Positions 18,601 to 41,600 of a stretch of 64,000 nucleotides of DNA are shown piece by piece. Where the stretch lies: assembly GCA_921293015.1 (NCBI GenBank), contig OV121092.1:5834001-5898000 (forward strand), in the 5' to 3' direction. The notes below the pieces were generated by a model. The model was given only the letters and a program-made list of their open reading frames with translations. It was not told the DNA's origin and did no database searches. A program made the position numbers and the translations under genes. The DNA comes from Phorcus lineatus (lineage: Eukaryota > Mollusca > Gastropoda > Trochida > Trochidae). Positions within the stretch are counted from its first letter, which is position 1. Each line of letters begins with the position of its first letter.

Positions 18601-20614
18601 TATATGACAAATATTCTTACTGTCTGTAAATGAATTAAGAAATCATAATTAATAATTCCAAAACTTACAAATATCTAAAAAAAAATTTCAAGAATACCAA
18701 GTTAGATTGACATAAGTAAACCCTATGTAAACCGCACACAAGACAAGACAAGGCAAGACTTGTCCAATTAAATGTACATGTCTTGTCCAATATTTATAAG
18801 CTGGGTTTGATTGACAAGAATAATTTGGCAGGAGATCATGCTTATAATGAGAAATAGATTACTAACCTAAAATACTATAAAAATCATGATTTTATTGATA
18901 TAAACTTCTTTATCATAAAATTCATAATGGTTTCGGAGTACATTCTCATTTCATCGGGAGTAAGCTTATACTCAAAAGTGTCATTAATTTCATGATGAAA
19001 AAGTCGTTATCCAAAAAATCTTGTGATTTCTAATGTATGGCACTTCTAAATGACTTAAAACACTTGAGTTCAATGTGATAATATATATTTTGGAACAAAT
19101 CAACATTATGAAATTTATCTTTTACTTTATTGTATCGAAATTTGCCAGTTCGGATCAATATTTATACGAAGACCAAGTACAATAGAGGATTAGATTAGTT
19201 ATACACGCGAGATATTTGAAATCTTGGTTGACTCCGAGAGAACAGTTTGGAAGAACACGATAATTATCTGATTGCCCCATGTAGTAGACAAGAATGTAAT
19301 GTAATGTACAATGTCGGCGGTATTGATGTATATTGTCTGAAGGCATGATTAAATATTCATTCATTGTACAATCAAATTAAGAGTTCAGTGGTCTCGAACA
19401 TTATGTGTTATGCTTGTGTAATTTGAGTGTCAGTGAAGAGTTATATTCAAGCAAGAGTTCATTAACCTGTATAAAAGAGATTAAAATATTTTATCATCCA
19501 AAACTGACTTTCAAAATTGATATCGCTTAGATACCAAGCGATATCTACAAGTGATACCTACATTGTAGATATTGCAACAATCAAATCATACTAAGGCTTT
19601 TGCATCATCTATTTACGACTCACTATGTTTTTGCATCACTGAGAACACTGATAACAATGCTATGACGTCACAATGTTGATAACAAAATAGAAGACTTTAT
19701 TAATCTGTCACACACTTATAAAATTGTTCAACACGACCAAAAGTGGCCTCTGAGACAATAAAATCATTACTAAACATGTTATACATGTATAAGAGTTATG
19801 AAATATAAAATATTATAAAATATAATACATAGAGTGAACCAAGTGATGCCTTACAGTAATATATATGAAATGGCTGATTGATAAAACTTTTCTACAACAT
19901 CTTTAAAACTATTGCAGCGATGGATTTCCCGTAATTGTTGTGTTGTGATGCGTGTTGGACAATAAATATATAGCCTAATTAATTTAACATAATGAGATTT
20001 TTATTGAATTAATTTATTTCTTACATTCTTACAACTCATGTTGACCACGTAGCCCTTCGTCTGTCATTAACGGATAATTCCAGCGAGTTCATATTTACTA
20101 AGAGGAACATCTCACGTCAATACCCCTCAAAATAGTGAGTTTTGTAAAGTAGCCGCTATAAAATAAGCTTGGTACTACATAAGTTAACCAGATACTATTG
20201 AATGATTATGGATGTGAAATCTTCTATCTGTTGATAACTTCATACTTCTAAATTCATTTTCTAAAATATACAGTCAAACAGACAACATGGCAGAAATCTC
20301 CAATGGACAATAAATAAGCTGTTGTCTTGTGAATAAAAGCAAAATTCAAACCTCGAAAGCATCTGATAAATCATTTTAAATCATTATCAAGATAAAATTA
20401 TGCAATAAAGATCGACCTACCAGTGTAGTTTTCATGTTTGGAACCGGCCGGGAGGGTGAAGACGATATCATGACTGGCGCCGCGGTATACGAGGATATTG
20501 TCCTTCTGGTTCAGTCTGTAGGCAACCTCGTAAGTCAATGACTGATCAACACTCTGAAAATAATGATAATAATAATAAAACAGTAATAATAATAATAAAA
20601 GTAGTAGTAATAAT

Positions 20615-20647
<33 letters not shown>

Positions 20648-23600
20648 TATCACAAATATCAAAATGGAGTGCATGCTCAAAGCGCTCCATGCATTATAAC
20701 CCTGGCCTAACCAAAGAGCCAGTTACAGCGCTTACGATACAATCTTCACCAGGTACCCAATTAGTACTACTGGGTGAACAGAGACACATTTTGAAAAAAA
20801 TCTCCTGCCTAATGAGACACCACAAGTTTCTCAAGTCAGTCTCAGTATGGGGCTGGGAATAACCCTTCAAACTATCAGTTAATACAGCAATGAATCAGAT
20901 AACCCAGCCATCCGGCGAGCCATGCCAGATAATGCCGAACTTCACCGAATCGGACAACTGAGCTATGCACAGGCCCAGTGCCTCAAATCTTTAAATTATA
21001 GGTAAGCTTACAAAAAATACCAATGATTTATAACTACAGAGGTTTGAACAAAATTTTCTCTTCCTCCTCTGCATATCAAACATGATTTAGTCCGATGAAG
21101 AGAGCGGTGTCATAGTTTCAATATGTGCACATTTACAGATACTGGTTTTCTTTAGCAATGATTGGTTCACTGAGAGTTCTCCTCCTGTGTTGAACATCAC
21201 AAACCAAATATTTGCGACATTATCAAAGTAGAATATTGCATGAGAAGCAGCCGTTTTGATGCAGTTTTTAGTAGACTTAAAAGTGTGATTCAATGAAGAA
21301 ATAACTAAAAATCGTGCAATCATGACTTTTGATTCTTTTTTACATAATTCTCTCTGCTCACCGAGAACTGACTGTCCTCGTCTATCCACTCGTTACAGAA
21401 GACGGTGAATTCGGTCCGCATCTCCACCCCGCGTTCTGGCTTCACCGTACAACGTCCTTTACTCGGGCTGCGGTTCACTCGGAAGTAGGTTTGGGCCATG
21501 TACTTATGGGTCATTCCTGTAAGAAGAACGCTCATGATTGTAACGGCCCAGAATAAAACTATATGCAGCTAAGGATGTAGTCGAAACCATCACGTGTTTT
21601 AATATTTTCACCTTAAGGATGTCCGTATCTCAAATTTAAAGTATTAAACTTTTTTCCTAACTTATTTTTTTAAAGTTTTAGTGTATTTGCTTGAAATATC
21701 CACCCCAAAAAATAGGGGTTAGTGTGGGTTTTTTCGAGATATTTTAAGACAAAAATCCATCTGTCAGTCAGAGTTTTAACATGGGAGTCTATGGGAAAAT
21801 GATGACCTTTTCGGAGAAATCTTAAATTTTAATTAGTTCCTGTATTAAACTTTTTTTAATATGAAAACATGTTATAGATTTAACATAATCTTCTTCCAGG
21901 TAAAAAGTGAAAAATATGTATGGTACTGTGGGTTTTTAGCCGCTACGGCACATCATGTATTCAAACATTTCAATTAAATTATCAACATTCAAACTATTTT
22001 TGGACTAAGAACATGCTTTCTTCCACTCATTATCTAAAAATTATACCTGAACGCATTCATAAAATTATATTCATCCAAAAACATCTACTTTCTAAGAAAA
22101 ACAGATAATAGAACTTGCTCAAATAATAGTTACTATCAAAATTGCTGAGTCAGCAAAATTGTGAATTATTTCAAAATGAAAATACTACGTTTCTTTATTA
22201 TGATGAAAATTTAGTCAGAAATCATCAAAATTGAGAAATTACCACTTCATTTTGGTTTACTATATAAGAACATTTATGGTTGTTTGAATTTTGTAACTGA
22301 CTGAGGAGCGAACATCCTTAACTATCTTAACTAGTCAAAGGATGAGTGTTTATACTTGTTTAGCATAGAACTGAAGGATAGTTTAAGGCAATCTTTTACT
22401 TTTCCATCATTTTTATCAATCAGTTACTTTTCTACCTTCAGATTCATAAATCTATATTTTAAAACTCGGCTAAAAAAATATTTTGAAAAATAGCAAAATT
22501 CTGCATGTAATGTCGAATTGCTATTGTTGATGACATTATTTATGCTTGTTTTGCTACCTCTCTCAAAAACTGTTCGATAATGCTAAATTAAGTTTGGGTA
22601 TTATCTGTCATATGAAACTTTCTCTATTACAATACAAATCAATAAAATGTATATACCAATGACTACCTAGCCACACAAGCTAACATCAAACTGTTCAGTT
22701 TATTTCCTCCCAAAACATTGTTCTTTCAGAAATACATCGTCAATTTCCCGTCTCTTTAAGTCCCAAGAGCCTCTCTTTCATGTAGAGATCAGCCAATCAA
22801 ACAGATCACAACCCTAATTTGAGCGAAGCCCCTTTAATATGGAGACCCTTATCGTTGCTACTTTAAGGCAAATACTCTCCCTAAAAACAATGCAAACTTC
22901 TTTTGCCAATATGATCCCTCACAAAAAACTTAAAGTTTTTACTTTAAAAGAAAAAATAATAATTTTTTATAGAGATCTTGAATTATCTTTTATTTCAAAG
23001 CCTTGACTGTGTACAATGCCAACACTTTCTAGACTTAAGAAAGCTCCTTTAAAATTTTTACTCTATACAACAGACAATCTGTCTACTTCACAAGAGGAGA
23101 TTCCAATAAAAGTACGTCACTCCAATGCATTCAAGAATAATTGGCCATACATTAAATGCTTTATATCAACTGGTTGCATATTGACCGAATCTACAACAAT
23201 CCCTGAAGATTTCGGCCCAGATAGGGGATCAATTTCTCATCCATTTCAAAATGACTTGGTCATGGTATCAACAACAGTTTCTGGCGAATAAACATATTGA
23301 ACATGCCGATCATCGGGTTAGCACTCCTAGGATTAGAAATATGCCAAATGTCAATTAATTCATCGTTTATGAGATGATATGAAGTCATGTCTGAAACACC
23401 GATATTCGAGATTGCTTGTGCATTTTTGGCATTTTAGCACATTCAACAGAGAGCATGTTAGCTCAGTCATGTTGATTCTATCAGGGATATTGTCGATTCT
23501 ATCAGGGATATTGTCGATTCTATCAGGGATATTGTAGGCTGTATTTGCAGACAAATATTCCAGAGTTCAAAATGTGCTAAGTACGTCCATTTGTCGATTT

Positions 23601-26600
23601 CATCGGCTGATTGATGGCTGAGTGATCGTGATGCTAACTCCTATTTATGTACACAACAAGATTAACTGCAAGCAGTTGATACAAAAACATGAGGAAATTG
23701 ACCATTTTCTATCCTTTCTCTAAGCTTCCAGGGAAATTAACAAATTTTGCTGTCAAGATTTTTTTGTATTGTCTTCTTTCATTAGCACTCAATATTGAAG
23801 TGCTTGTTTGACATTATATTCTTTTCTCAAATTCAAACACAACAATGCCTAACATAACACACTACAATGTGAGAATAGAGTTGGAAAATATGAATTAAAA
23901 GCATATCAAATATAATTTTTTTAAATTGCTGAATTTGTTTTTTCTTCAAAGAACTAGCCACCTACCCAAAACAGTCCATGTGCCTAACATATCTGTTCCT
24001 TTCATGCATAGCTACATCCACCTTTCAACACTAGCCAGAACAAACAACCACAAACTAAACTATTGTGCTTCCCTATTCTTCCCCTCCCAATCCCTCATAA
24101 ACTCCAACACCACCAACCCCACCAACAAAACTCTACCCTACGTCCCAAAACGCTACCTCAAATAGCACTGTAACCCTCATTAATTCACATCCCCTACCAA
24201 CACCACCAACAAAACTCTACCCTACGTCCCAAAACTCTACCTCAAATAGCACTGTACCCCTCATTAATTCACATCCCCTACCAACACCACCAACAAAACT
24301 CTACCCTACGTCCCAAAACTCTACCTCAAATAGCACTGTACCCCTCATTAATTCACATCCCCTACCAACACCACCAACAAAACTCTACCCTACGTCCCAA
24401 AACTCTACCTCAAATAGCACTGTACCCCTCATTAATTCACATCCCCTACCAACACCACCAACAAAACTCTACCCTACGTCCCAAAACTCTACCTCAAATA
24501 GCACTGTACCCCTCATTAATTCACATCCCCTACCAACACCACCCACGGACTAATCTACCCTGAAACCCTGCTCAAACTCAAGTGAACATCATCCACCTAC
24601 ACAAACCAAAAAAAGGCTTCCTGCCTTCCTGCTTCTCAATGCAAAATCCCTCTTATTCCCCCCCCCCCCCCATTTCCTCATCCATTTCAAACCCCTGACA
24701 TGACCGAACACCACCCATAAAATAATTAACCATGCCTACCTACTCAAGTAATACTTTACCCCCTCATCCCCTACCACAAACCATTCACATCACCCACCAT
24801 CACAACCCACAGACTACCCTGCCTCCCTGCTCCCCACTCAATTTTCATTGTACCCATCTACTCCCCTGCTCCTCGATGCATAATCTGACATCACCCACAA
24901 ACACTACCAACAGAATAATCTACCCTGCCTCCCAACTCAAGTATCATTAAACCTGTCTTTCCCTACCAGCCCTGAACATCACCAACCTATACCCCTCAAA
25001 AAATAATCTTTGTTGCCTTCCTGCTTCTCTATGCAAAATCACCCTTATCCCCCCCCCCCCCCCCCCCCACCTTTTCTCATCCACTTCAAACCTCTGACAG
25101 CACCCACAGACTTAACTACCCTGCCTCAATACTCCCCACTGAAGTATGATTATACCCTCTCATCTCCTACCAACCACTGACATCACCCACCAACGCCACC
25201 CATAAAATAATCTACTCTGCAACAATTCACATCACGTACAGCTACTGGTCACCCATCAATATTTACTCTTCACACCAGTCTCCAACTGTACGATGAATGC
25301 TTTGTGCAGGGAGAGGCACTCAGGTTCCCTCTTCCCTTGCTGTATCCTGGAGCTTCTATCAACAAGCCAAATCACCAGGAAGAAAATTTCCTTCACTAAA
25401 GCTTTGTTCTGACCAGTCTCCCTTGAAGAACACCTAAATAAAACTAGATTCTAAATTTCTTAACTTCTTGATTTACTGTCCACCCCTAAATCGATTCCCT
25501 CTATTTACCACAATCCAACAAATCTCTATCTACAATCCACTCATAAATCCACTCCACACTCTATCTACCCTTCATCCATAATTCTAATCTGTCTACCCTC
25601 TACCCAAAAATCTGATAAATAGCCACCTACACACTAGTCCCTAGATCATTTACCATCCATCCATAAATCTGCTCCACACATTTGCTCTAACTAGCCTCAT
25701 CTACAACTTACTCTGTATATCCGTATCTGATATACGACTATCCATCCACTAGTCCATATTGTCCCTGCACCCATAAATTCGCTCTAGACTTATGCTGTAT
25801 ATACCACGGTCTGTTATTTTTCTATTCCCCCCCTATTACAGCTCTGCAATTGAATCCACTTGTTTTATTTTCCAGTCACAAGTCAACTCTATTTACCCTT
25901 AATTCACAACTTTACTCTGTCCTCCACCCACTAATTATCCTCCACCCACAACTCTACTCTATCTACCCTCCACCCACATCTCTACTCTATTTACCCTCCA
26001 CCCAAAACTCTACTCCACCCACATCTCTACTCTATCTACCCTCCACCCACAACTCTACCCTCCACCCACATCTCTGCTCTATCTACCCTCCATCCACAAC
26101 TCTACTCTATCTACCCTCCACCCACATCTCTACTCTATCTACCCTCCATCTACAACTCTACTCTATCTACCCTCCACCCACAACTTACCTACGAAATTAC
26201 TTTATCTACCCTCTACCCACTATCTACCCTCCACCCAAAACTTTACACTATTTACCCTCCATCCACAACTCTACTTTCTTAACCCTCCACCCACTATTTA
26301 CCTTCCACTCAAAACTCAACCTTATTTACCCTCCCCTCACTATTTACCTTCCACATAAAACTCGACTCTATTTACCCTCCACCCACTATTAACCCTCCAT
26401 CCCCAAGTATTTACCTGGCGAGCTTGCCTCCACCTGTACTATGAAGGTCTTGTTCTGGTGGAGATAGCGGGGCCGGATGACCAGGGACGGTTTGTCCAGC
26501 CCGGTGAGGGTCTGATCCGCCGGCAGGTTAAAACTGTGGGTGATTTCTTGGCTGATATGGATCGGGAGAGAAGAACCGCGCTTCTTATCATATCCTGTTA

Positions 26601-29600
26601 CCTGGTCTTCATCTGTCTTGTCCTCTGATGGGTCTGAGAGGAATATATGATAAATTCATCTAAGGGTGAAATGATCTTTTTCTCATCTAAAAGTTATGTT
26701 GAGGAGAGGATGTGTGATGACTGGCAGGATTGCCAAAAATGAGAAAAGCAAAATTTTCTGTATGAAGAAAGAGGTTCTGAAGAAAGGTTTCTAAGGTGAT
26801 ATAATATTATTACTCGTCCATGTAGTATACAACAGTTTAATAGTTAAACGTCAATATTCAACAAGTGTAATACTGCTGCACGTATGATGTCAAGAGAGAC
26901 AGTTTTGGTTTGTAGGGCTGAAAGGGATATAATAATAATCGAATCATGAACATAACCATTTTTTTTTTTTTTTACAGTAGAGTAGTGAGTTGGGGTTTAA
27001 CGCCGCTTTCAAGATTATTTCACTTATATCGCGGCTGCTAGTATTGTTGCAGGGAGAAATCCCGCAACACCATTGTGGCTATGCATTGCGGTGAAACATG
27101 CGAGCATCGGCTGGAACTAGGGAATGGTACTGCGCTGAAACTCAGTGTAGCATTGCACCCTAAGCTGACTGCATGTAGAACAGTTTTCTACTGCAGACAA
27201 AGATGCCGAGCCCCTGGTGGGATTCGAACCACGGACCTCTTGATCAGAGGCCGAACGCGCTAACCACTGCGCTATCCCGCCCCCTTATACAGTAGAGGAA
27301 TCAAGGTTTCAGATTCCAGGCAACAGGAACAAGTATAAAAAGTGTTGAATGTGTTTGTATCCTATAGAATAAAGTGCATTCAATTTCATACATCTTTCGA
27401 AGTCTAAACTTTAAAAGTTAGTTAATTAAGTGATATTTACCTGGTTTTCCTTTGTTGTTCTGTTGTCCTGCAAATGAAAATATCAAAGATAAACAACTGT
27501 GACAAACCAAAACATCCTTTTTAGGAGTCAAACAAAAACTCAAGAACATTCAATTTCCAAAGACTTCACCATATCATTTTTTGAAGAGAATCAGGGGCTA
27601 GATTTTCGAAGCACTCTTAGCGCTAAGATAGTCGTATGTGCCATACATTAGCAATGACGTACGACTATCTTAGCACTAAGAGAGCTTCGAAAATGCAGGC
27701 CCTGGCACGTATTTCACAAAACCCTCTTAGTACTAAGGATGCCCTTGATATATACATATATATATATATCCATAACAATGAGTTACAATTACCTTAGCTT
27801 AAGGGAACTCTATGCAAGTGGGCCCAGGAGTTATAAGAAATTAAAGAATATCAACAGGTTACCAAAATTACTTCTTTTTTTATTAATTACTCACCATATG
27901 TCCTCTTTGAGTTAGGGATGTGTTCATCGGGTATTGGTAAGAAGGGTTCATGGGGAAAATCTGAAATAAAAATTTATGATTATTTGCTAACACCTCTAGA
28001 TATTCTAAGAACAATGTTTGTGTAAAATAATCTTTGTTGATTTGCTTACAGATGATATCAAGGTTTAGATTTTTAAAAAATCTATTATTTCCCAATTACT
28101 AGGACTCAAAATTCTCAAAGATATTTGTAACAGATTCTTTGTTGATATGATCACAAATGATGTGAAATTTTTCTTTAGATGTTTCATTTCCCTAATTACA
28201 AGAACTCAAATTCTCAAAGAAAAATATAGTTAATATAATTACAAATCTATTATCCAAGTTTGAAGTATTGATTAAACAAATAATTTCAACATTTAAAAAA
28301 TTCTCAAATTTTCATATAAAAAAAGCAAATTTTCTTTAAAAAAAAATCTTGAATACTTAATTTCAGTTTAGGATTTGCTTCTATTCATAGTATAGAGTTT
28401 TTAGAAGAAAAAATTATCTTATCATTGGATTTACTTTTTCAACAAATATAAAGAAGAAAAAAGTTAAGTTTAAATACTTACAAAACCCAATCTTTTCTCC
28501 TGAAGAAACTGAAACAAAAAGACAATTTCAGTATAAGTATATTCAATAAGTTGAAACTTAATTTCAAAACAAGGATAAATTAAATCATAAGTGAAAAAAA
28601 AAAGATTATCCAAACTTAAAAAATAAACATTAACAACTGCAATCACCATAACCCCTGTTGAATATTATCTTTAAAATATAGCTATTAAAAGAAACTTAAC
28701 AGCAAAATATAAAATTCTCAAAACAAATATTAAATAAAAAACTACCTTTTATATCCTTCTCTGAAGCTGAGGTTGTTTCTGCAGAAAAAGCAAAAAAAAA
28801 CCTTCAATAGTTATTATGGTCAAACAATAAACAAATAAAGCATTGGACGGTGGACAGTAAAAGACAGTGAATAGTAACAAATGTAACAATATCATTTTTT
28901 GGAATTACACAATCTGCATAAGTAAAAATTGTTTGAACTCTTTTTAGTAGAGTCAGATTTGAACCAACACCTTCCAAGTTGTTCAACGACCACCTGCAAT
29001 CAGTGTTTAAACAGCTTACCATTCATCCAAGACTTTGACATAAGTCAAATTAACTTTAAATCAAATCTAAATTACTTCAATCAGTATTGATAACAATGTA
29101 CTTCTTTATTAGAATTCTAGAAGTTTGATTGTTGAACCTGTCTTATTTTCTAACATTGTTTCAGCATAGATCAAAGTCTCTCTGAAGGCCACTGGCATTT
29201 CCTGATGGAGGATGGCTTACTTAATGATAACACCAATGGGTCATGTTTTATCTAACTTATAAACTGACAGAAACAACAAAAAAGTTTTTGATAAAAGATA
29301 AACTGGGGACATAGGAATATTGAGCTCCATCAAGGCAGGGGTACAACTTTTTGAGTAACAAGGGGTGCACATTTCTAGGGCCATCAGAAGTACCCCACCG
29401 ACATTTCTAGGGCCATTATAAGGACCCCACTGACTTACTCTCAGTGGTAGGGTAGGTGCTGGTGAGCAAAGTCTCCGCTGTTGAGGTGGATGTTGTCTCT
29501 ATAGTCTCTGACTGGTTCCCAACGTACTGCAGACTCTTCCGCCCGTCCGGCGCCCCGCACTTGTCAGGGTAGACGTCCCGCTGGTAGCTGTTATAGATTA

Positions 29601-32600
29601 CGAACACTGACCATCGGAACTGGATGTCCCTCGGACAGTTAATGCACGCCGTCCTCAATGAAATCTTCTCATTCGGGTTGACTAGGTTGTTTTGGCATTG
29701 GTGACAACTGATTTTTAATCTGAAATGAAAATTAATATTAATCTATTAAATTATGTACTTGTATGATGATAATAAATTATTGACATTTTCACCACTTATA
29801 AGGTAGTAGATATAACTCATTTCTCTGAATGGATTTTCTAGGAAATATGATTCCAATTGCAAATTTTTCTCAGAGAGGAATTTCAAGGAGCTATACCGAA
29901 AATGCAGGATACCACCTTTCCCTATCTTTATAAGCTCACCTCATTATCTCATTCTCCTTATCAATGTCGATAACCTGGTCGCTGGTCTTGTTGCGACCGT
30001 CCGGCGTTGAAACGGTCAGTACAAAAAGAAACCTCCTCTCGTCCGTAAGTAAGAGTCGAACTGGGATGATCACTATCGGCTTGGTCAGAACCAACTGGTG
30101 CCAGTGACCGGTCCCGTAAGATTCAAACTCAGACCCTGATCGCTTCAACTCTGTGATGTTGTAGCAAGTTTGGTTTGAGATTGTCTGACATAGCCAGCGG
30201 AATCTGGAAATGAGAGTTGAAAGTATATAAATTTTCATTACCTACAAGAGCAATCGGCAAGGGCAAAAATATCACTTTTACATTGTGATGTCACGTTATT
30301 GACAATGCTTTGAAGTCAGTTTGACTATGACGTTGCGTTCCAAATGTGACAACGGTAGGTAAAACATGGTATATCATGGACATCCATATAACATCCTCTA
30401 TATATATAAAATATTATTATCACTTATTTGACAGCAATCAGCATTTTATGAAATTAAGCTAGTTTTATATTATGATGTTTTAAATTAAATGTTACCTTTC
30501 TCTACTGATTTATTCTTACATCTTGATTGTAGGATTAAAAATGTTGATGTCATTGTTTGGGGAATAATGGGCAAGCATGGCCAGGTGAGCTATTGTTAGA
30601 GAAAGTTTTTTCTGAGTACAGGTTGTTTCTATCTAGACTTTTGATTAAAAGTCTTTCATCTCATAAAATCAAAGTTTGTGAATGTTAACAAATGTGATGT
30701 GCTTATCTTGTGTAAGAATATTGAAAAAATCGCATAGAAAACAATGAAGATCAACTTCTGCAAAGTTCCGCATAAAAGCAGTTACCTGATATGTGATTGG
30801 TTGCGATGGTCTGGGTCCCGTGACCTGCTCCCGTCCAGGGTTATCGTCTCTTCCCGGTAGCTGACAGACCTCCTCATCCCCCCCTCAATCTCGCTCCGCA
30901 GGGGGGACGGCACAATGTTCAGGTTCAACTTAGCATCTGTGTACACAATCTGCCCACTTATGTTCACCTGCAATGATGAAATCAAAATTAGTTTAAATTT
31001 TTAGGTTTTTATTTTGATAGAAACAAACCGCTACAGTATCTGAAGATAGTAAGGCAATTTTGCACTGCAACATTACCATAAACATGGAACTTCTTAAAAA
31101 AAATATATAATAATTTGACCCCATTTCAAATTCACTTTACTTGATGCCATATCTTACAAGAGGAACAGTAGCCGCACAGTTTTTGGTTCCTCATTAATTT
31201 AACATAGATAAATTCTTTTCAAGGGTTTGATATTTTACCTATACCCATATTCTCAGAGTTACAACAGAGTTTGGAAGACAATCTTTGTTAGAATGAAAAT
31301 AATTGTCTCAAGACTACTCTCTGAGATGGAAAAACACTTACATGGAGCAAAACAGTGTATTCCCCAATTGGCAGGGAAAGAGGCGGAAGGATCAGTGTCT
31401 GTTTCTGGAGGATTTTTCGCTCAACTGGGACTTGAACTTCGACACTGGTTGAGTTGATGAAGGTCCATGAGTAGTTGACTGAATAGGCAGGGAGGGTACA
31501 GTTGACCTTGACCCTTGTCTCGATGTGAACTTGCTCAGACTTGAAGAATGTGAACTGTAGGAGGGAAATTGCAGATAAGTACAAATGAATATTCAAGTTG
31601 TTGAGAGGAAAATTGTTTTCATAATTTTTACAACAATGTTGTTTATATGACCTAAGGGAGGTAACTTTGGAGGAAAATCTGCATACCACAAAAAATAATA
31701 TTTGTTCTTGTTTTCAGTTATTCATTTTTGATTAAGATGTCATGATCATCTCAACTTTTTATGCAAGTTTGCTCTTAAATAGATTCCCCTTTAGATCTAG
31801 CAGTCTTTCCTCTAAAGTCTTCTGCAAAAGATTTTCTATCATTCCCATCTCTCATGGGCATATTTACAGGGAGTATCAATTACTCATGTAAGTTACCTAT
31901 GTATACAAGTATTGCAGAGCCACTCACCTGTTTAGTCTTGGAGCCGATGATGGTGACGACGGGAGGTTTGCAGACCTTGTTGAGTATGAAGAGTCTCATG
32001 GTTGTCGTCTCGCTACTAAGAAGGTTCTGGGCTGTCAGGTTCACCACGTACTCACCCAGTCTGGAGGGAAGATAAGAAATAAGTAACCTTACTCCCGAAA
32101 CGTCATTGTTTGGCACTCTTTGATTCAGAGAGAAAACTATTCATTTGTTGTCACATTATCATAATAAGATATATTATTATTCTTAAGGAGTCAATCTTCA
32201 TTCTGCGACATCAGGGTATTTGAATCTGCAGAATTCCTTCAAAAACCTGATTTATTACTCTCCCGTTGAAGATACCACCGTTTAATAAATCTACAAAGTT
32301 ATTACACATTGTGTAATAACATCGCGTGTTGATTGACGTCACATGACGTCACAATCGTTAAACATGACGTCACAATGTAAGCGAGGCAATGACAATGGCT
32401 ATCCTGGCGATCTGTATGATTTTTCTTTGATATAATTCAGCGAGTAATAAATGAAATACTAAACTCAGTCCCGTATAATTACATATTTATGACACATTAC
32501 ATACTTATGAAACTCGTGAATGGTATCGGTATCTAACTCGCTTTCGCTCGTTAAATACCAAACCATACACTCGTTTCATAAATATGTTATTAAACGGGAC

Positions 32601-38600: not shown

Positions 38601-41600
38601 TCATGTGTTATAAACAGTATGACATGCCAACTCCTATAGTATCCTCAATCTGCTGATTACCTTCTGTGTACTTGTGCACGCCCACTCCCTCCATGATTCC
38701 ACTCATGTAGGGGTTCCTTGTCCCGTTTGATATCTGTGTCGATCCGTCCCCGTAATCAAAGTGGAACATCACGTCAGACACCTCCGCGCTGGAAACGCAA
38801 AATTAAATTAAAAGCTTTATGATCAGATTTCTTTCATAAAATCTTTTCACAAGTTTTTCAAAATTAATTCATAAATAAAGGAACACATTTTATCAAATTA
38901 CTCATACTGGAAGGTAACAAAACATTTTCTTACTAAAACGAATAATTTATCAATGAACCAAACCACTTTAACCCTTTCACACCTACAGACTAGAATCAGG
39001 CTTGTAAATGTATTTGTGTCTGGTTTCTTAAAGGTGAAAGGGTTAAAAGTTATCATGACATACTGAGAAACAATGAAAGAGAGAATGATTTATGAAAATG
39101 ACCAATTAACCCCTGACATGTAGATCCTAGTTAAAGTGAAACATTATATCACAGATTTTGACAATGGAGTGTAAAAGAAATATACTAGCTTGATTTACAA
39201 CCCCTCATTTCTTAAAAAGGGTACCAGTTAAAGACACTCTAACATGTTTTCTTGATAAAAGTGATCTTACGAAAAGGGAAACAAATGTTTCAAATTGCAA
39301 GAAATATTTTACAATAAATAAAAGAAGTCCTCAAACAAACATACCAAGTTTGATTGAGCTTCGAGATTCCATTTCCCTTATGCAAAACATTAAAAGATTG
39401 TGAACACAAAAATGGCACTTAATAAATGATAATTTCTTCTATGACTAAAGATAATAATGTTGATAATGAGATGTTGATGCTCTCAAGAAAAATAGATTTC
39501 GCATAAACTAATGAATAATTGAGAAAACTCAAAGAGATAAAATATTTGAAAAAGTACGCTATAGTGCCTTGAAATATTGATTCTACCATGACATCAAAGT
39601 ATCCTTGCATTTGATTGGTTCATATCATCGTCAAATGTGCGTTTAAACTTCGAATACTTTCTACAAGTATGGAATCTACGTTTGAATCACACACACAAAA
39701 GTTTTATATCCTAATTTGAGGAATATCCATACAGAATCACTTACTAAGCTCTGAAGGTCAACTCTGTGTTGACCGCGACGCTGTCTTTGACCTTCAAGTA
39801 GAACACGGTCGTGCTGTCAATCGGCTCAATCACGTGGATGATGAACGGTAACTTCTTGATGATTGGTTTTGGATAAAACTTGTTGGAGATTTTCACCATA
39901 ATTTGAATCTTGTCTGCAAGCGTGAAGGAAAAAGAGACACTGCTAGACTGCGGCTCACTGCAAATAGACATATACTCATATCTATAACTTAAATAACTTG
40001 TATGAAGAATTTTAAAAAATAATATTTTTAATGAGTGCTAAAAAACATTTACGAAAAAATTCAAGTTTAATCAATGTAACTAATGGTAATTAAGTGGATA
40101 TGTGAACAAAAAAAAGTGGCGTTCTTTGAGGGAGTTTTGGAAAATTCATCTTTTGTTTTTGGTAGTTTTTTTGGTAGAAATTTTAACTTTTACAAAAGAA
40201 CCGTTTCCTGAAAATTGGCCAACATAACCCAAACGGCTAGTTATTGATCACATTGGATAAATGTGTTTAAGTGAAAAACAGTAAACAAATTAAGCGTTGA
40301 CATCAACCAAATTATGATTCTGGCACAAGAGGTTTAGGCATGACAAATTACAAAACAAATTAATTGAAATGCACTTGATTTTTTAAAAAAGTTGTTTTTC
40401 ACAGGTATTGTTCATAATCCTTCATTTTATTTGCAAACTGATTGCCCTGATTTCAAAGTTGTCAAACAATTAAAAGTTGAAGTTCATAAGTTGAATGAAT
40501 ACAAAACAAAATTCTATAGAATAAATCAATTGATTTTTATGTAAAATCTATGGCAAATCTTCAGCTCCCTTCACAATATTTAAAACAAACAAAATCAAAG
40601 TGAAGAATATTTTCCATTCAGAGAATGGCTAATGGTAACATAAAAAATAATCAATTTTACAGATTACAAGAGAGAAAGTTTGATCAAATCAGGACTAATG
40701 CCAATTCAAAAGAATATCTCTGTCATTGGTACCTGTTTATCTCCATTGGTGCCAGACTTCTGTACCAATTCTCATTTTCCACCACTTCAAGTTCCCACTT
40801 GAAAACCAAATCAGCGCCTGTTTCCACGGTTACGTTGACAGACACCTTGGAGTTGAAGGCTATTATTGGTTTGGCGTTGGATGTTATTTTAATGCCAGAA
40901 ATTGGTTGCCCTACTGATACAAGAGTGCTATCAGACATACTGGAAAACAAGTTAGCTGCTGTCACATTAACCTCATAATCTCCAACTCTGTCGTACACGT
41001 GAGATATCACCAGGCGATAAATCGGTGGAGTTCTCATTTTGCTGTTTGCCTGTTCTACAATCTCGATAACTCCGGCATGAGAGTGAGATGTCGTGTTGAA
41101 TGTAGTTCCGTCACCAAAGTTGCAGAAAAGGGTGAAATTCTGTCCTCCTTGCACATCGACAGTGGTGTTGGCGGCGGTGCCAAGCGGTACCGGTTCTGAG
41201 TTAAGTTCTGTGTAAAGGATCGGGTACTGGACCAGAATGTTCAAGGAGGTTTCCACGGAACTGACATCATTCTCAGCCTTGACACTAAGAGTCTCAACTC
41301 CTGCTTTTCTGAACACATCGGGCCTCTAAAAGACAAAATTGGAGTCGTTTTGAATGAAGATAACACAAATTCTGTAAAACCAGTTATATGTATTCTTGAA
41401 AAGATTAGATGAAACTCATTATCCTACAGAAAATTATCATCAACATCATTGATTGGCTTTCTTCATTTTTAACACAGGCTTTGAACAGGTGTGACAGTTT
41501 GCAACATATCACCTGGAAAAACTCTGACAAATAACACATTTCTTTGTTATTCCTTCATTACTAAATTATTTCACTTTCGTTGAAGATTGCAACACACAGT

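Follow-up and report, generated by a model that had tools for sequence, protein, structure and literature searches.

The preliminary description of this locus reported five consecutive exons, four of them tiny, that all begin and end in phase 1 within the REJ module of a putative receptor, raising the question of whether these exons are real and whether they build a hinge whose length is tuned by splicing. The window analysed here is a 64,000-nt stretch, C19:5834001-5898000, of the 957.8-Mb assembly of the thick topshell Phorcus lineatus, a trochid snail, for which the genome note also gives public muscle RNA-seq data, ERR10377999 (PMC10444997).

Exons were chained by their splice signals and codon usage, which placed a gene on the minus strand in which PKD repeats are followed by a REJ module. 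The polycystin-1/REJ family (PF02010) comprises human PKD1, PKDREJ and PKD1L1-3 together with sea urchin SpREJ1-10, and the Phorcus gene shares its order of domains: Pfam matches to PKD lie upstream of REJ, at window positions 40735-41325 and at L023, and the REJ module scored 198.5 bits against a curated cut-off of 25, covering profile positions 2-388 of 452. By its sequence, the gene is a member of the polycystin-1 family that encodes a large predicted cell-surface receptor. No match to PLAT or PKD_channel, expected downstream in a full polycystin-1-type protein, was found near it in an exon-by-exon search, which may miss split or divergent exons, with the 3′ end of the gene unassembled: none of the 79 PLAT matches in the genome (E up to 0.01) fell on C19, and the PKD_channel search (E up to 1) gave 28 matches, a single one of which lay on C19, below the cut-off, on the other strand and 1.4 Mb away. 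The gene model is incomplete at both its 5′ and 3′ ends, and past exon 21, to 30 kb beyond the window, the chain was unconvincing, perhaps with the exception of one helical-looking candidate exon, which matched no Pfam family. A search against solved structures gave no relative, returning two chance matches (E of 1.2 and 1.3), and no RNA family reached its gathering threshold in 26000-30300.

Predicted small exons and their splice sites

The exons around the REJ module were predicted as follows, in the order of transcription.

Exon 14: 29439-29719, minus strand, 281 nt, phase 2 to 1
Exon 15: 28746-28778, minus strand, 33 nt, phase 1-1, adding KTTSASEKDIK
Exon 16: 28482-28508, minus strand, 27 nt, phase 1-1, the weakest of the four microexons
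Exon 16, alternative form: 28482-28499, minus strand, 18 nt, through a second acceptor 9 nt in
Exon 17: 27895-27960, minus strand, 66 nt, phase 1-1, Pro-rich
Exon 18: 27441-27467, minus strand, 27 nt, phase 1-1, ending in QQNNKGKP
Exon 19: 26415-26633, minus strand, 219 nt, phase 1-1, the end of the insert followed by REJ sequence
Exon 20: 21362-21516, minus strand, 155 nt, phase 1 to 0, REJ sequence
Exon 21: 20421-20553, minus strand, from the exon chain

The positions, sizes (33, 27, 66, 27 and 219 nt), phases and AG/GT borders of exons 15-19 were all as first described. Exon 14 encodes the CxxC segment, the strand with a conserved Trp and then the first 57 residues of a loop, including a Ser/Thr-rich tail in which 14 of 24 residues are Ser or Thr, the densest such stretch. 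Exon 19 has a second phase-1 acceptor 9 nt inside, at 26624. The border of exon 20 was set by hand; the automatic chain ran this exon to 21568 and inserted two doubtful exons between exons 19 and 20. All four small exons lie in the 2,805-nt intron between exons 14 and 19.

We first scanned this intron with a generic splice matrix for open phase 1-1 pairs of 18-75 nt, which returned the four proposed exons and the second acceptor of exon 16, with no other candidates. The observed number of candidates was matched in none of 200 dinucleotide shuffles at 12 bits and in one of 200 at 11 bits. When frame was ignored, 17 pairs passed, and the best four distinct places were again the proposed exons, followed by an unproposed place at 29221-29263; among 13 other introns of the gene, none of the 12 candidates of at least 12 bits was phase 1-1 and open. 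We then trained new matrices on this gene and three of its paralogs, using 66 of their predicted exons, each 100 nt or longer; this training set was picked with the generic matrix, and some of its exons may be false. Across 114 kb on both strands, eight candidates reached 16 bits, with exon 18 first (acceptor 11.8, donor 9.0 bits), exon 17 second (9.1 and 9.4 bits) and exon 15 fourth (12.2 and 5.5 bits). The trained model missed exon 16, the donor of which, at 1.6 bits, scored lower than those of all 66 training exons, and it listed an unproposed place, 27170-27190, at 9-12 bits. Four places in one background block were seen in 0 of 72 blocks at 12 bits and in 6 of 72 at 9 bits, and three places in 3 of 72 at 12 bits.

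It is therefore necessary to weigh the reading that some of the four, exon 16 above all, are not exons but sequence fitted to the frame. The failure of the trained model to find exon 16 and the passing of 12 bits by 27170-27190 speak for it, as does an exon chain built with a loose exon penalty, which fragmented into 144 exons and put three of the four (exons 15, 16 and 18) in other phases; under a stricter penalty of our own setting, the chain picked all four in phase 1-1, with exon 16 in its 18-nt form. The coding signal of each small exon is nearly nil (0.2-3.3 bits). Against this reading stand the frame-blind generic enumeration, in which the four exons took the best four distinct places, and the trained matrices, in which exons 15, 17 and 18 made up three of the eight candidates that reached 16 bits over both strands of the 114 kb. 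We consider this reading unlikely, at about one chance in four. Exons 15 and 18 (33 and 27 nt) combine very short length with good predicted splice sites, as expected of microexons. We thus have good confidence that exons 15, 17 and 18 are exons, as judged from their predicted splice sites, and regard exon 16 as a doubtful one; the good splice sites first attributed to all of them are borne out by the trained model for these three, whereas the donor of exon 16 is poor.

The shared phase of the small exons might seem striking, and 1-1 exons made up 7 of the 66 training exons. However, a chance argument of (1/3)^5 was rejected because the exons share one phase-1 intron and their phases are not independent: an exon placed in that intron in any other phase would break the frame. 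The run of 1-1 exons is less surprising than it appears.

A long loop in the REJ module

The N-terminal half of the module matches REJ profile positions 2-247, ending in exon 14, and the C-terminal half matches 262-388, leaving an insert of ~144 residues against ~14 positions of the Pfam REJ consensus, with which the comparison was made and which has no insert of this type. Between the conserved Trp and the conserved strand that follows it, the loop spans 171 residues, of which the microexons contribute 51, leaving 120 with all four skipped, and most of the insert is encoded by exons 14 and 19. The insert is of low complexity, and its putative disorder was judged from composition. The REJ score was 198.5 bits with the four microexons and 199.8 bits without them, a neutral effect in keeping with the earlier proposal that small symmetric exons encode a low-complexity linker joining the CxxC-containing half of REJ to its second half. 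Exon 19 had been grouped with the others as skippable, but its additional removal lowered the score by 19 bits to 180.7 bits, still far over the cut-off, although exon 19 alone gave no Pfam match; given that it carries REJ sequence, exon 19 is not an expected cassette. The 51 residues encoded by the microexons contain no N-glycosylation sequon.

In human polycystin-1, REJd3 (a construct from residue 2380) has been modelled as FNIII-like and mechanically weak, and its role as an 'entropic spring' was a speculation of the same authors (PMC3677617). By its order along REJ, the Phorcus loop would likewise fall in the third FNIII-like segment. By contrast with the polycystin-1 family, the Phorcus loop is 171 residues long and carries tiny exons.

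We then compared the loop with those of REJ paralogs in the same genome. Leaving out three single matches below the cut-off, 36 of 39 REJ matches were grouped by us into 14 places, including the gene of the window, so that the gene belongs to a multigene set, like the sea urchin REJ genes; of those ten, SpREJ1 and 3 alone are reported as probably linked with the acrosome reaction (PMC1934368). At 3 of the 13 paralog places (C, F and C37:35.73 Mb) the loop was unreadable and was dropped from the count; in the 10 paralogs read it measured 37-61 residues, compared with 171 here. In paralogs A, B, G and H a single exon encodes the whole loop. In D, E, K1 and K2 the loop is interrupted by a phase-1 intron, seen from both sides of the junction, with the K2 loop exon weakly scored. 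The models of J and I, in which the exon edges beside the loop are unsure, were used for loop length and the intron scan only. The loop intron falls 6-25 residues after the conserved Trp in the paralogs and 57 residues after it in the gene of the window; the introns probably descend from a common ancestor, yet their sameness is uncertain because the positions differ. In the same scan, the paralog loop introns held few candidates (D 2, E 1, I 0 and J 3, the best at 13.4 bits; those of at least 12 bits numbered D 0, E 1, I 0 and J 1), whereas the loop intron of the window gene held five candidates at four places, at 12.4-19.3 bits. Over this region the paralogs are 18-25% identical to the window gene (7 of 10 aligned), which leaves the order of evolutionary events uncertain.

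Two further observations concern the paralogs. REJ-like genes at C37:35.66 and 35.91 Mb (L047, L058, L044 and L059) have the loop on its own in a 1-1 exon, either 138 nt (weakly scored) or 108 nt long. Neighbouring pairs of REJ genes, which suggest local duplications, lie on C2 at 56.83/56.86, 4.31/4.36 and 5.19/5.24 Mb and on C1 at 39.36 and 39.43 Mb.

The loop reaches 171 rather than 37-61 residues because of the small 1-1 exons and the extended flanking exons. Taking the splice scores and the paralogs together, real small exons in a long, gene-specific loop are likely, and our preferred reading, which we hold to be probable, is that the third FNIII-like segment of REJ carries a variable loop specific to this gene, lengthened by small 1-1 exons in a phase-1 intron. 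The small exons probably arose inside the phase-1 intron of the loop and were tolerated, as they would lengthen a surface loop and leave the fold untouched. The loop would serve as a flexible ectodomain spacer rich in Ser/Thr, Pro and charged residues, perhaps O-glycosylated; such a loop would be low-complexity, gene-specific, grown by microexons and possibly alternatively spliced.

Limits on exon skipping

The claim that any combination of the exons can be skipped proved wrong, as joining exon 16 to exon 18 or to exon 20 creates a TGA from the final T of exon 16 and the GA that opens either exon. A stop arises in 6 of the 32 combinations of exons 15-19 with the 27-nt exon 16, and in 2 of the 16 that keep exon 19; this limit on skipping vanishes if exon 16 is no exon.

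These results bear on how the small exons might be used. One reading holds that they are real and always included, the long loop being merely cut up by introns with no tuning. Exons 17 and 18 have trained splice scores that fall among those of ordinary exons, and the stops at the exon 16-18 and 16-20 joins would disfavour free skipping; the donors of exons 15 and 16 are weak, however, and skipping is common for animal exons of 18-33 nt. We give constitutive inclusion a substantial chance, somewhat short of even. At the other end, a regulated combinatorial cassette of microexons would tune the reach or glycosylation of the receptor across tissues or gametes. The exons are indeed short, symmetric and divisible by three, tandem acceptors lie 9 nt apart at exons 16 and 19, and removing the microexons is neutral to the REJ score. 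Nevertheless, a stop appears in 6 of 32 combinations, 120 of the 171 loop residues remain under any skipping of microexons, and a sign of neural regulation did not set these exons apart. A TGC motif near the acceptor is a mark of neural microexons, and it was present in 2 of 4 microexons and in 13 of 66 training exons, no clear difference, so the motif was rejected as a distinguishing sign. We therefore regard such a cassette as a rather unlikely explanation. The boldest version, an ectodomain loop rebuilt combinatorially in tissue- or gamete-specific isoforms, with those exon sets permitted that preserve the frame and the exon 16-18 join as a stop-coupled off switch, appears improbable.

The splice-tunable hinge originally envisaged accordingly survives in part: small symmetric exons, three of the four with strong support, and a linker are predicted, whereas free skipping and the cassette role of exon 19 are not upheld, and 120 of 171 loop residues stay. 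Under the preferred reading of a loop lengthened by small exons, most transcripts would most likely carry most of them, with exons 16 and 15, the donors of which are weak, partly skipped.

The Phorcus exons resemble animal in-frame microexons in being 18-33 nt long, symmetric and located in a low-complexity surface region. The best-known animal in-frame microexons are neural and reside in intracellular proteins. Among the literature matches listed, searched by titles and the starts of abstracts, no paper reported a molluscan REJ gene with alternative splicing or microexons, though others may exist. The locus would illustrate how a single phase-1 intron, situated in a surface loop, can acquire a series of tiny exons that lengthen the extracellular domain of one paralog; if these exons are alternatively spliced, the result would be a polycystin ectodomain of adjustable length, testable in a species for which RNA data are public.

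Repeats in and around the introns

A repeat origin of exons 15-16 was rejected, as the region matches only itself genome-wide (with simple repeats and very common words skipped). The same origin was rejected for exons 17-18, where other matches were confined to 27578-27723, between the exons (40 of 656 candidates scored). A palindromic element at window positions 27592-27704, in the intron between exons 17 and 18, has 48-nt arms that are 88% complementary and recurs at no fewer than 39 other places in the genome at 86-92% identity (again 40 of 656 candidates scored); it looks like a miniature foldback transposon. The block at 26975-27290 resembles a tRNA-derived SINE, and ARAGORN found no tRNA in 26900-27400. 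The intron between exons 19 and 20 contains a tandem array at 24112-24543, with 5.1 copies of an 84-nt unit and 99% matches, and C-rich tandem arrays of several periods at 25877-26399.
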